Shown piece by piece: positions 13,706 to 41,258 of a stretch of 64,000 bases of DNA. The translations under genes and the position numbers were made by a program. Under the pieces are notes generated by a model. It did not search any database. It saw only the letters and a list, made by a program, of their open reading frames with translations, and was not told the DNA's origin. The first letter of the stretch is position 1. Every line of letters begins with the position of its first letter. Location of the stretch: assembly GCF_011057685.1 (NCBI RefSeq), contig NZ_LNFY01000010.1, forward strand, positions 62,001 to 126,000, read 5' to 3'. Source of the stretch: Thermotoga sp. Ku-13t. GTDB taxonomy: Bacteria > Thermotogota > Thermotogae > Thermotogales > DSM-5069.

Positions 13706-14377
13706 TCACCTCACGAGTGCCCCAAAGCGTGAGGCGAGCTTGTGAAGAACTTCATCGCTTGGCGTTTCGATGCCCGGCAAAGGTTTCAGGGTTTTCTGAG
13801 CCCTGAAACGCTGCAGATACCACGTACTGCCTCCCACGATCTTACCGATGAACGCAAGGTCATCCTCATTCATCAAGCCTGGAACGTACGTGGTTCTGAC
13901 CTCGTGTGGAATGGAACACTTTTTGAGAATGTTGAGTGTCTGGAGAACGTTCTCAAACATATCCTGCGCGGTATCGTGGTCCAGGCCTGTGATTGAGTGA
14001 AAGTGCTCCGCGCCAGCCTTGAAATCCAGCGCCACATAGTCCAGAAGAGCTTCCTTGAGAAGCTGTTCGACCAGTTCCGGATTACTCCCGTTCGTATCGA
14101 GTTTCACAAGATAGTTTTCTTCCTTGAGAATGCGAACGAAGTTCAGAAGCTTCTCGTGTATTGTCGGTTCTCCACCTGTTATCACCACGCGGTTCGTGAT
14201 GGTCCTTCTGCGTATCTCTTCGAGGATCTCATCTTCCGTTGCTTTCTCCACTCGCCCCAGCACCAGCTCCGGATTGTGACAGTAGGGGCAACGAAAGTTG
14301 CAACCCACCGTGAAAACAACGCTCGAGACCGATTTCGGGTAATCCAGCAGGCTGGTGAGAATCATTCGTGCGAACAT
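13706..14377 (-). CDS. nrdG: anaerobic ribonucleotide reductase activating protein
   Basis: 223 residues. It is a radical SAM protein with the cluster motif CNFRCPYC (CxxxCxxC, about 26-33), the GGEPT motif near 70 and a conserved DTNGSNPE segment. It generates the glycyl radical of NrdD. It overlaps the nrdD stop (TGATG), which gives the ATG at 14377; a TTG at 14380 is the alternative. Its sequence is like the single-domain NrdG-type activases of anaerobes. Control is expected through the NrdR boxes upstream of nrdD. Confidence 0.92.
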   Translation of the reverse strand: MFARMILTSLLDYPKSVSSVVFTVGCNFRCPYCHNPELVLGRVEKATEDEILEEIRRRTITNRVVITGGEPTIHEKLLNFVRILKEENYLVKLDTNGSNPELVEQLLKEALLDYVALDFKAGAEHFHSITGLDHDTAQDMFENVLQTLNILKKCSIPHEVRTTYVPGLMNEDDLAFIGKIVGGSTWYLQRFRAQKTLKPLPGIETPSDEVLHKLASRFGALVR

Positions 14378-16185
14378 CAAACCCTCACGGTCTTCCTCAA
14401 CCTGAATTCCTCCTGCTTTCCTGAGTTCCAGCTCTTGACCGGCCTGTAATAACCAACGACCCGGGAATAAACCTCTACCGGCTTACCGCAGAACGGACAG
14501 TTTTTCTGTTCCCCGCGCAGATATCCATGGTCCTGGCACACGCTGAACGTAGGCGTCAGGGTCAGGTAAGGCAACTTGTAACGGGTGAATACGGATCTCA
14601 GAAGCTGTGGAACGGTTTCTGCCTCTATCGATTCACTGAGGTAGATGTGCAGCACCGTTCCACCCGTGTAAAGAGACTGCAGCTCGTCCTGGTGCTCGAG
14701 CACGTGGAAAAGATCGTACCCACCGTCAACGGGAAGCTGGGTCGAATTCGTATAGAACGGTTCGTTCACCCCGCTCGTGTAGATATTCGGGAAAGTTTTT
14801 CTGTCTATCTTCGCGAACCTGTAACTCACACTCTCGGCCGGAGTGGCTTCCAGGTTGTAGAGGTTGTTCGTCTCCTTCTGGAACTGTAAAAGTTTCTCTC
14901 TCATGAATTGAAGAACCTTTATCGCGAATTGCCTGCCTTCTTCGGTATCTATCCCCACCCCCAAGAAGTTCATACAGGCTTCGTGCATACCCACTAGACC
15001 TATGGTTGAGAAGTGATTCGACCAGTAACTGCCCGTCGTTTCGTGGACATCGGAAAGGTAGAAACGTGAGTACGGATAGAGCCCTTTCTCCGTGAGATCT
15101 TCAAGAACACGCCTCTTGATCTCCAAACTGTCTCTGGCAAGCTCCATCAGCTTGGAGAGCCTTTCGAAAAATTCGTCTTCGTTCGAAGAAAGGTAACCGA
15201 TCCTCGGCATGTTTATCGTAACCACGCCTATGCTGCCTGTGAGTGGATTGGCACCGAACAGACCCCCGCCTTTTCTTGCCAGCTCACCTTTCTGGACCAG
15301 GAACTGTGAGAGCCTTTGTCTCACCGATGTGTTGTCCAGACGCAACCTGCAACACATGCTTCTGACGTCCGAAGGATCCATGTCGCTGTTGATGAAATTC
15401 GAAAAGTAAGGTACTCCGTACTTCGCTGTGAGTTCCCACAACGGATGGAACCTGTCCGAATCCCAGGGGAAGTCCCTAGTGATGGCGTAAGTCGGGATCG
15501 GAAAAGTGAAGATCCTCCCATGTGCATCCCCTTCGATCATCACTTCCCAGAACGCCCTGTTGAGCATATCCATTTCGTCCTGGAATTCAGCGTAAGTGTG
15601 GTTCTGGCGCTCACCAGCGACGATAACCTTCTGCTGCTTCATGTGTTCCGGAACGACCAGATCGAAGCTCAGGTTCGTGAAAGGAGTCTGAAAGCCTGTC
15701 CTAGTTGGCACGTTCAGGTTGAAGATGAACTCCTGGATTGCCTGCTTCACTTCCTCGTACGTCAGTCCATCGTGTGCAATGAAAGGGGCGAGCAGGGTGT
15801 CGAAATTCGAAAAGGCTATCGCACCGGCCGCTTCTCCCTGAAGCGTGAACATGAAGTTGACGATCTGACCCAGGGCACTTCGAAAATGTCTTGGAGGTCT
15901 GCTGGATATTTTTCCCTGCACACCTGTGAAACCTTTTAAGAGGAGGTCTTCCAGGCTCCAGCCCACGCAATAGACAGACAGAGAACCGAGATCATGGATG
16001 TGCATGTCCCCTTTGATGTGTGCAGAAGCGATTTCTTTAGGATAGATCTCTTCGAGCCAGTATCTCGCGACGATCGAAGAATAGAGATAGTAGTTGAGCC
16101 CCTGGAGCGAATACGACATGTTGGAATTCTCGTAAACCCTCCAATCGGCTCTGTTGAGATAATCTTTCACAAGGTTTCTGATCAT
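14377..16185 (-). CDS. nrdD: anaerobic ribonucleoside-triphosphate reductase
   Basis: 602 residues. It reduces NTPs to dNTPs by a glycyl radical. The C-terminal zinc site (CQDHG...CPFCG, about 557-573) and the glycyl radical segment RVVGYYRP (about 579-586) are intact. The active-site segment MCCRLRLD is near 276-283. There is no N-terminal ATP-cone before the catalytic barrel, as the protein starts right at the DYLNRADW segment, so allosteric activity control by ATP/dATP is probably absent. The ATG at 16185 follows GGGAGG by 7 bases. The promoter carries two NrdR boxes. Confidence 0.95.
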   Translation of the reverse strand: MIRNLVKDYLNRADWRVYENSNMSYSLQGLNYYLYSSIVARYWLEEIYPKEIASAHIKGDMHIHDLGSLSVYCVGWSLEDLLLKGFTGVQGKISSRPPRHFRSALGQIVNFMFTLQGEAAGAIAFSNFDTLLAPFIAHDGLTYEEVKQAIQEFIFNLNVPTRTGFQTPFTNLSFDLVVPEHMKQQKVIVAGERQNHTYAEFQDEMDMLNRAFWEVMIEGDAHGRIFTFPIPTYAITRDFPWDSDRFHPLWELTAKYGVPYFSNFINSDMDPSDVRSMCCRLRLDNTSVRQRLSQFLVQKGELARKGGGLFGANPLTGSIGVVTINMPRIGYLSSNEDEFFERLSKLMELARDSLEIKRRVLEDLTEKGLYPYSRFYLSDVHETTGSYWSNHFSTIGLVGMHEACMNFLGVGIDTEEGRQFAIKVLQFMREKLLQFQKETNNLYNLEATPAESVSYRFAKIDRKTFPNIYTSGVNEPFYTNSTQLPVDGGYDLFHVLEHQDELQSLYTGGTVLHIYLSESIEAETVPQLLRSVFTRYKLPYLTLTPTFSVCQDHGYLRGEQKNCPFCGKPVEVYSRVVGYYRPVKSWNSGKQEEFRLRKTVRV

Positions 16186-16218
16186 ACTGACACCTCCCAC
16201 GCAGGATCCGGCACGAAC

Positions 16219-16248
16219 AGTATACCCAATATGTAGTATCCCTGTCAA
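16219..16248 (-). promoter_or_regulatory. promoter of nrdDG
   Basis: TTGACA (16248-16243), an 18-base spacer and TATACT (16224-16219) on the minus strand, about 34 bases before the nrdD start codon. The proximal NrdR box fills the spacer. Confidence 0.8.
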
Positions 16249-16269
16249 GAAGAACACTATATATGGTCT
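16224..16269. promoter_or_regulatory. tandem NrdR boxes upstream of nrdDG
   Basis: Two 16-base sites resemble the NrdR consensus ACACwATATwTwGTGT. The distal site 16254-16269 (ACACTATATATGGTCT) matches at 14 of 16 positions. The proximal site 16224-16239 (ACCCAATATGTAGTAT) matches at 13. The sites start 30 bp apart, close to three helical turns, the spacing known for NrdR pairs. The proximal site lies between -35 and -10, which suits repression. The nrdR gene is in this window at 40791. Confidence 0.85.
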
Positions 16270-16348
16270 ATCATTCACGCAAGTGTGATCTCTCTTTGAC
16301 AGTTTTCCTGAAGATCGGTACGTTACCTGGCACAGATCCCGGTGTGCC

Positions 16349-16357
16349 TGGTAAAAT
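16349..16357 (+). promoter_or_regulatory. possible extended -10 promoter for the YhaM-like gene
   Basis: TGGTAAAAT fits TGn plus TAAAAT. It lies 21 bases before the GTG start at 16378. A separate TTGACA at 16296-16301 has a poor -10 (TACGTT) 17 bases on. Confidence 0.35.
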
Positions 16358-16377
16358 CGCCATAGGAGAGTGAGAGA

Positions 16378-17421
16378 GTGAAGCTGGAAAATATTCTACC
16401 AAAGGAGATCATCGAAAAGTTGAAAGAACAAGCAAGATCCGGTGGACCATACATACAGGAACTTTCGGATAAGATGAAGGAGACCGTTGAACTCGTTGGA
16501 AAGGTCGCGAGCAAGAAACTCCAGGAATCCAAGGACGGCAAGAAGTTCCTCCTCATAACGCTCACCGACAGAACCGGGAGCATACGTGCGGTGGACTGGT
16601 ACAATGCAGAAGAGAATGATGCGCGTCTCACGGAGGGAGACGTCGTCCTCGCGAAGGGACGTGTTGTGTTCTTCGAGGGGCACCTGCAGCTGAACATCGA
16701 GAAAGAGAAGGACGCTCTGACAATTCTCGCTGAGGATCAGTACGATTACGAGAGGTTTGTGGAAATAACCAAGAAAAACATCGAGTTGCTGTACCAAAAG
16801 CTCATCGAGTTCATAAACGATGTACGTGACAGGGAGATAAGAACCTTACTTGAGTCGCTTTTCGTGCGTGACAAAGAGTTCGTTTCCAGTTTCGTTCAGG
16901 TACCTGCGGGTGTCAGCGTGCACCACGCTTACGTTGGCGGGTTACTGGAGCACACCGTTGACGTTGTCACCCTGTGTCGGAAGGTGAACGACGTTTACGA
17001 TTTTCTCAACAGGGATGTGCTCATCGCGGGTGCGATACTGCACGACATAGGCAAGGTTAAAGAATACAGAATAACGAAGAAGGGTTTGGAGGTGACGACA
17101 GAGGGAGAGCTCAAAGGGCACATCGCGCTCGGTCTGGAAATACTCCGGCAGAAAGCCAGCGGAGTGAACATTTCCAGATCGAAGCTTTTGCAGCTGGAAC
17201 ACATAATCCTCTCTCACCACGGAGAGTACGAGTTCGGTTCTCCCGTCCTGCCCAAGACTGTGGAAGCTTACGTGGTGCATTCACTCGAAAACATGGATTC
17301 GAAATTGTCCAGGTTCAGGATCATAAACGAGAAACAGAAGAACGGTGACAAAGCTTGGAGCGATTTCGACAAACATCTGGGAAGACGCATCTGGCTGGGA
17401 AGGTGGAAGGATGAAGATTAA
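16378..17421 (+). CDS. YhaM-like 3'-5' exoribonuclease (OB-fold plus HD domain)
   Basis: 347 residues. An OB nucleic-acid-binding domain (about 38-125, with LITLTDRTGSIRAVDW) is followed by an HD phosphohydrolase domain. The HD residues are visible as HHAYVGGLLEHT (about 181-192), ILHDIGK (about 220-226), GH (about 245-246) and LSHHGEYEFGSP (about 279-290). This is the architecture of Bacillus YhaM. The GTG start has GGAG upstream. The next gene starts inside its last codons. Confidence 0.88.
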   Translation: MKLENILPKEIIEKLKEQARSGGPYIQELSDKMKETVELVGKVASKKLQESKDGKKFLLITLTDRTGSIRAVDWYNAEENDARLTEGDVVLAKGRVVFFEGHLQLNIEKEKDALTILAEDQYDYERFVEITKKNIELLYQKLIEFINDVRDREIRTLLESLFVRDKEFVSSFVQVPAGVSVHHAYVGGLLEHTVDVVTLCRKVNDVYDFLNRDVLIAGAILHDIGKVKEYRITKKGLEVTTEGELKGHIALGLEILRQKASGVNISRSKLLQLEHIILSHHGEYEFGSPVLPKTVEAYVVHSLENMDSKLSRFRIINEKQKNGDKAWSDFDKHLGRRIWLGRWKDED

Positions 17422-40790: not shown

Positions 40791-41258
40791 ATGAAATGTC
40801 CGTACTGCGGACACCCTGACAGCAGGGTTCTCGACTCGAGACCCACTTTAGATGGTACGGCAATAAGACGCAGGAGGGAATGTTTGGAATGTGGCGCTCG
40901 TTTTACAACGTACGAGCGTTATGAGCTTCTTCCGATCATCGTTGTTAAAAAGGACGGAAGAAGGGAGACCTTCGACAGGAACAAAGTTTTGAACGGGGTC
41001 CTGAAAGCGTGCGAGAAAAGGCCTGTACCATATGAAACGCTGGAGAAACTCGTGGAGGAAGTCGAGCTCACGATACAGAAGATGGGTTATACGGAAGTTC
41101 CTTCGAAGGTGATCGGTGAGCTGGTCATGCAGAAGCTCAAGAACATAGATCAGGTCGCGTACGTGAGGTTCGCGTCGGTTTACAAAGATTTCAGAGAGAT
41201 AGACCAATTTCTGGAAATCGTGAAAGAGCTAAAAAAGAACGAGGAGGGAAAAGCATGA
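40791..41258 (+). CDS. nrdR: transcriptional repressor NrdR
   Basis: 155 residues. An N-terminal zinc ribbon (CPYC at 3-6, CLEC at about 31-34) precedes an ATP-cone domain (about 49-139, [16 protein letters not shown]). NrdR senses ATP/dATP and represses ribonucleotide reductase genes. The ATG at 40791 has AGGAG 8 bases upstream. The tandem NrdR boxes in front of nrdDG at 16224-16269 are the expected target within this window. Confidence 0.96.

Follow-up and report, generated by a model that had tools for sequence, protein, structure and literature searches.

The NrdR regulon was reportedly first predicted by Rodionov and Gelfand in 2005. As described in the available parts of PMC9110341, ATP-loaded S. 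coelicolor NrdR forms dodecamers that do not bind DNA, and octamers carrying dATP and ATP release tetramers, which occupy two boxes and bend the DNA; inverting C4 and G13 of the boxes costs about 50-fold in affinity there, and residues D15, R17 and R26-R29 of the protein are tied to DNA binding. Box pairs are reported to be bound by NrdR at gaps of 14-17 bp (PMC12051234, in part). NrdR control of nrdDG and nrdJ is already predicted for the Thermotogae by RegPrecise and the operator type is thus known: the resource holds a Thermotogales and an NrdR collection (according to the accessible text of PMC3840689) and assigns nrdD, nrdG and nrdJ to the NrdR regulon of eight Thermotogae (PMC4493059, likewise).

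The window, by which we mean the whole 64-kb stretch of DNA analyzed here (64,000 nucleotides), carries on its minus strand a class III RNR gene, nrdD (14377..16185, ATG at 16185), encoding a 602-aa protein with an MCCR motif (Pfam NRDD, 660.7 bits when scanned from 16188; TIGR02487), and the activase gene nrdG (minus strand, 13706..14377; TIGR02495 NrdG2, 184.7 bits). The two genes probably form one operon, as the nrdG ATG overlaps the nrdD stop codon (TGATG). Upstream of nrdD lie two 16-bp palindromes that fit the NrdR-box consensus, which we take to be ACACWATATATWGTGT for scoring: a distal box at 16254..16269 with 14 of 16 matches (AGACCATATATAGTGT in the minus-strand reading, ACACTATATATGGTCT on the plus strand) and a proximal box at 16224..16239 with 13 of 16 (ATACTACATATTGGGT and ACCCAATATGTAGTAT, respectively), both with C at position 4 and G at position 13. 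Consensus matching thus reproduces the two sites, scores and 30-bp distance that the earlier note had given. The distance holds from start to start and hence from center to center, which places the boxes about three helix turns apart with a gap of 14 bp, within the published range of 14-17 bp and at its short edge.

Both boxes are embedded in the promoter of the RNR operon. Read along the minus strand, the distal box (16269-16254) is followed by 5 bases, the -35 hexamer TTGACA (16248-16243, that is, 16243..16248), 3 further bases, the proximal box (16239-16224) and the -10 hexamer TATACT (16224-16219, or 16219..16224), so that the -35 element lies between the boxes. As previously proposed, the proximal box fills the spacer between the two hexamers, which measures 18 bp, and it shares base 16224 with the -10 element. 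This promoter is the sole match in a scan of positions 16100-16450 (11/12). T. maritima promoters are described as sigma-70-like, with spacers centered on 17 bp and transcription starting 7 bp past the -10 (PMC3636130, in the part available); by that rule, nrdD transcription is predicted to start at about 16212, with a leader of some 27 nt, and a ribosome-binding site, GGGAGGTG, can be read at 16191..16198 on the minus strand.

The candidate repressor is encoded in the same window. The nrdR gene (plus strand, 40791..41258, ATG at 40791) lies 24.5 kb from nrdD in a whiA-nrdR-greA-lysS neighborhood, whose other members are named from their sequences; its location beside greA-lysS and apart from nrdDG had been correctly noted, with whiA now added on the other side. 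The 155-aa product exceeds the TIGR00244 cut-off (211.3 versus 124.65 bits), matches the Pfam Zn_ribbon_NrdR and ATP-cone families and aligns over 148 residues with the solved NrdR 9fxk. Counted on this alignment, D15, R17 and R26-R29 are all present, giving a Zn ribbon with D15, R17 and the RRRR stretch, followed by an ATP-cone.

To what extent could such sites arise by chance? Single sites with up to three mismatches number two in the 64 kb versus 0.22 expected, and as many occur in 1 of 100 shuffles. Pairs are far more discriminating: at spacings of 29-33 bp, only one pair in the window scores at least 24, namely that of nrdD at 27 of 32, and the best pair in each of 300 dinucleotide-shuffled windows scores 19 to 23. 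In particular, no pair of 24 or more is found at nrdR that would point to autoregulation. Across the genome, sites with up to three mismatches number 12 versus 6 for the reversed pattern, and single sites alone therefore carry little information; of these 12, only the nrdD distal box has as few as two mismatches. Further genomic NrdR targets were considered and rejected, as no site outside nrdD and nrdJ has a partner above 10/16 at 29-33 or 39-43 bp. Separately, a 16-bp near-palindrome, TCCCAATATATAGTAT, occurs identically at G000:C1:531719 and G000:C4:562 with a partner box at neither, and is perhaps part of a repeated element.

A second NrdR box pair precedes nrdJ, the class II RNR gene of the same genome (PF02867, G000:C1:889666-891159). 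Its layout is as at nrdD, with ATACAACATATAGTAT followed by 14 bases that include TTGAGC and then by GCACAATCGGTAGTAT, which runs into TATAAT; the boxes score 13 and 11 at a spacing of 30. When five genomes of the genus were searched for pairs at 30-bp spacing with up to two mismatches, nrdD and nrdJ alone were recovered, at 10 of 10 sites, and pairs with three mismatches were no commoner than in the reversed control. Both nrdD boxes are kept at the same place in all five genomes.

The nrdJ region shows several additional features. The distal box (G000:C1:891616-891631) overlaps the last codons and stop of an upstream putative Rex-like gene, named from its sequence, and between that gene and nrdJ lies a CCCCC-loop-GGGGG hairpin followed by T's (G000:C1, about 891550-891630; L178, L006). 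The hairpin straddles the predicted nrdJ transcription start, such that read-through transcripts from upstream hold the whole terminator-like structure and transcripts from the nrdJ promoter would miss its first arm. It is seen in ten nrdJ regions, homologous stretches being present in G002 and in the g1, g3 and g4 genomes, and it may insulate nrdJ from read-through, leaving only the NrdR-controlled promoter to count. In four other genomes (G040, G042, G045 and G016), nrdJ frames measure 1122-1217 aa and their PF02867 matches are stretched, suggesting that the class II RNR carries inteins or large insertions.

We extended the comparison to a phylum sample of 103 genomes, with NrdD in 80 and PF02867 in 79, and compared the upstream regions of 159 genes (79 nrdD, 80 nrdJ or class I-like). 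At a pair-score threshold of 23, which is arbitrary, and with G008-G011 and G100-G102 treated separately as seven NrdR-less genomes, pairs precede 66/75 nrdD and 50/73 nrdJ genes in the NrdR-labelled genomes, versus 3/75 and 0/73 for the reversed consensus. In the seven NrdR-less genomes, which represent two lineages, 0/4 nrdD and 0/7 nrdJ genes carry a pair (0/11 in total), so that operator and regulator are lost together. Three genomes had first been counted among the NrdR bearers: G004, whose single cone is in NrdD, and G055 and G073, without an NrdR match. Moving them gives 65/73 nrdD and 49/71 nrdJ for the bearers and 1/6 and 1/9 for the rest. A protein search found NrdR in none of the 10 genomes without any cone match and in all 3 control genomes. 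Among the reassigned genomes, G055 (94% complete, in 520 contigs) has box pairs of 27 and 23 with NrdR not found, and its sister G054 has NrdR; G073 (60% complete, NrdR not found) has a weak pair of 22; and G004 has neither an NrdR-type cone nor a pair (19).

The NrdR-labelled regions that score below 23 (32 of 148) are accounted for in some cases by contig ends, as for G015 nrdD and G056 nrdJ, or by operon position, as in G077-G080, where nrdD carries the pair and is followed by nrdJ at a distance of about 1 kb; others, for example G038 nrdJ, G053, G089 nrdJ and G001 nrdD, fall below the threshold without such a cause. In G083, a pair of 27 precedes the third PF02867 copy, and the nrdD fragments of G096 have none (19), the second fragment being without upstream sequence. 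Two nrdD genes are present in each of G053 and G070, with box pairs at both in G070 and at neither, at threshold and three-turn spacing, in G053. C4 and G13 occur in both boxes of 105 of the 116 phylum pairs scoring at least 23. The earlier note had proposed an NrdR-box search of this genome and of Thermotogota RNR promoters, and had made its reading depend on conservation upstream of nrdD in relatives: pairs precede most nrdD and nrdJ genes where NrdR is present, and those of nrdD are conserved together with the regulator, throughout the genus and, across the phylum, in most genomes that bear NrdR, with the exceptions named above.

The spacing is constrained as well. A search of the 148 regions with spacing left free between 18 and 60 bp finds a pair of at least 25 in 74, of which 72 fall at 29-33 bp (35 at 30 bp, 22 at 31, 13 at 32 and one each at 29 and 33) and the other two at 25 and 40 bp; the reversed consensus yields such a pair in 0/148. 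In G046 (L095, L167), the nrdD and nrdJ pairs lie at 40 and 42 bp in an AT-rich background with shuffle means of 20.6-21.1; this genome may use four helix turns at both genes, as described for Streptococcus, a weak reading given the high background. We rejected the idea that box spacing reflects DNA topology: with reverse gyrase scored as TIGR01054 above cut-off (31/103 genomes), genus-gene means are 30.66 (13) versus 30.76 (27; p = 0.50), and the means by region are 30.44 bp with the enzyme (34 regions) and 30.83 bp without it (63). Nor is it a universal rule that one box fills the -35/-10 spacer. Such filling is seen in 46 of 97 regions (the proximal box in 26, the distal box in 20), compared with 16.4% in box-preserving shuffles (largest of 50: 23.7%), and the other 51 regions lack this arrangement, so that spacer filling is a tendency only.

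Taken as a whole, we consider it highly likely that the two boxes constitute an operator at which an NrdR tetramer represses nrdDG. By analogy with published NrdR work in S. coelicolor, E. coli, Listeria and Streptococcus, rising dATP would load NrdR with dATP and ATP (or ADP) and release a DNA-binding tetramer, which would hold both boxes on one helix face, about three turns apart. As the proximal box fills the spacer and the distal box lies just upstream of the -35, which the two thereby flank, RNA polymerase would be sterically excluded. Filled by ATP alone, NrdR would form larger, non-binding assemblies and nrdDG transcription would resume. The same NrdR would act on the second pair, before the class II gene nrdJ.

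Given that the box consensus itself contains TATA and that the proximal box touches the -10, the palindromes might instead be AT-rich promoter sequence whose -10-like elements resemble NrdR boxes by chance. Such an origin is very improbable in our estimate: the nrdD pair beats 300 of 300 shuffles, the spacing is fixed, C4 and G13 are kept, pairs are absent from the seven NrdR-less genomes and the reversed consensus does not score. We give similarly little credence to the idea that a different regulator, one that reads a similar palindromic motif, binds the sites in place of NrdR. NrdR binding is here predicted from sequence, and further regulators of RNR operons do exist elsewhere, such as H-NS and Fnr at E. 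coli nrdDG (PMC12176259, in the available part); however, pair geometry at three helix turns is an NrdR signature, RNR genes alone have pairs in the genus and the sites vanish with nrdR in two lineages.

A different objection is that NrdR binds but exerts minor control, with nrdDG set mainly by, for example, redox state or cobalamin supply and with nrdJ making most dNTPs. The presence of two RNRs in the genome and of a gene for a Rex-like redox repressor, putative and named from sequence, directly before nrdJ would suit this scenario. Nevertheless, the pair is kept at both RNR operons in much of the phylum, and an Rfam search of the 64-kb window returned four tRNAs only, with neither a riboswitch in the window nor any other known type of leader RNA at nrdD. 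We regard minor control as unlikely and retain direct repression by NrdR as the preferred reading.

The ATP-cone, a domain that usually senses surplus dATP, has a single genome-wide PF03477 match, in NrdR. NrdD of the window aligns with NF006126 over model positions 102-681 of 684, leaving 1-101 unmatched, and has no PF03477 match; an alignment that starts at 102 indicates that the cone region is missing, and the enzyme thus differs from NrdD of the NF006126 type, which has an N-terminal ATP-cone. Pfam and NF006126 therefore agree with the earlier note that this NrdD is cone-less. The accompanying suggestion, that NrdR alone may sense dATP, holds in a sharpened form: the sole genomic cone is indeed that of NrdR, but the specificity site is still open to dATP, as seen in T. 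maritima NrdD (PMC4493059, in the text available). What may be confined to NrdR in this bacterium is dATP sensing through the ATP-cone, and because neither RNR of the genome has one, cone-mediated dATP feedback on total RNR capacity can only be transcriptional. T. maritima NrdD is likewise reported to be cone-less, and cones are present in around 80% of class III enzymes and in fewer than 10% of those of class II (PMC11226230, in part).

Across the 103 genomes, the cone follows the RNR complement. It occurs on NrdD in 23 genomes, of which 21 lack PF02867 genes altogether, and all 21 genomes with NrdD but no class I or II RNR have a cone-bearing NrdD; among the 59 genomes with both NrdD and PF02867, NrdD is cone-less in 57 and cone-bearing in 2 (G015, G086). 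A cone-less NrdD without PF02867 was found in none of the 103, in 70 cones occur only outside NrdD, and in 3 an RNR was not found. Thirteen relatives were found in public genomes; of the 8 N-termini scanned, 7 have a cone (L191, L192, L195, L197, L198, L201 and L202) and one does not (L196). Among 34 canonical NrdD domains selected for a tree, the cone label switches three or more times along well-supported branches, including once outside the phylum, and both g34 and the window's genus g1 (support 87/90) are cone-less beside cone-bearing relatives. Since genomes cluster by family and label changes on the tree are few, the number of independent cone events is small.

We tentatively propose, as a reading we judge plausible yet somewhat less than probable, that the Thermotogota have partitioned an ATP-cone switch: lineages with class III RNR only would keep the NrdD cone, and in those with a cone-less class II enzyme the NrdD cone would have been lost at least twice, so that only the NrdR cone would remain to sense dATP/ATP for total RNR capacity. 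In two lineages, NrdR, boxes and every cone would also have been lost, and with them all cone-based dATP feedback. In their genomes (G008-G011 and G100-G102), RNR genes are present and NrdR, box pairs and ATP-cones were not found, leaving such feedback at neither level; completeness exceeds 90% for G008, G010, G011 and G101. The association of cone and RNR class does not appear in the available portions of PMC11226230, PMC9531940 and PMC9669993 and may still be in print. The phylum offers a natural comparison, with cones in both NrdD and NrdR, in NrdR only or in neither, that addresses the open question of what an enzyme-level ATP-cone adds when NrdR senses the same nucleotides.

In comparison with known systems, the nrdD operator bears out, for a phylum that branches deeply, a regulon known from prediction, with nrdD, nrdG and nrdJ as targets, as in the RegPrecise Thermotogales NrdR regulon (PMC4493059, in part). 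Like the NrdR box pairs of E. coli, S. coelicolor, L. monocytogenes and S. pneumoniae, as set out in the accessible parts of PMC9110341, PMC12051234 and PMC12176259, it consists of two 16-bp C4/G13 palindromes about three turns apart that overlap the RNA polymerase site, and the repressor again combines a Zn ribbon and an ATP-cone. The locus differs in its gap of 14 bp, versus the usual 15-16 bp, and in having its boxes on both sides of the -35; furthermore, unlike the S. coelicolor nrdRJ operon, nrdR of the window has no box pair of its own. As for the enzyme, T. maritima NrdD is assigned to the NrdDh type (PMC4493059, in part), and NrdD of the window falls in a different clade from the NrdDs of genus g13 and related genera, which score low.
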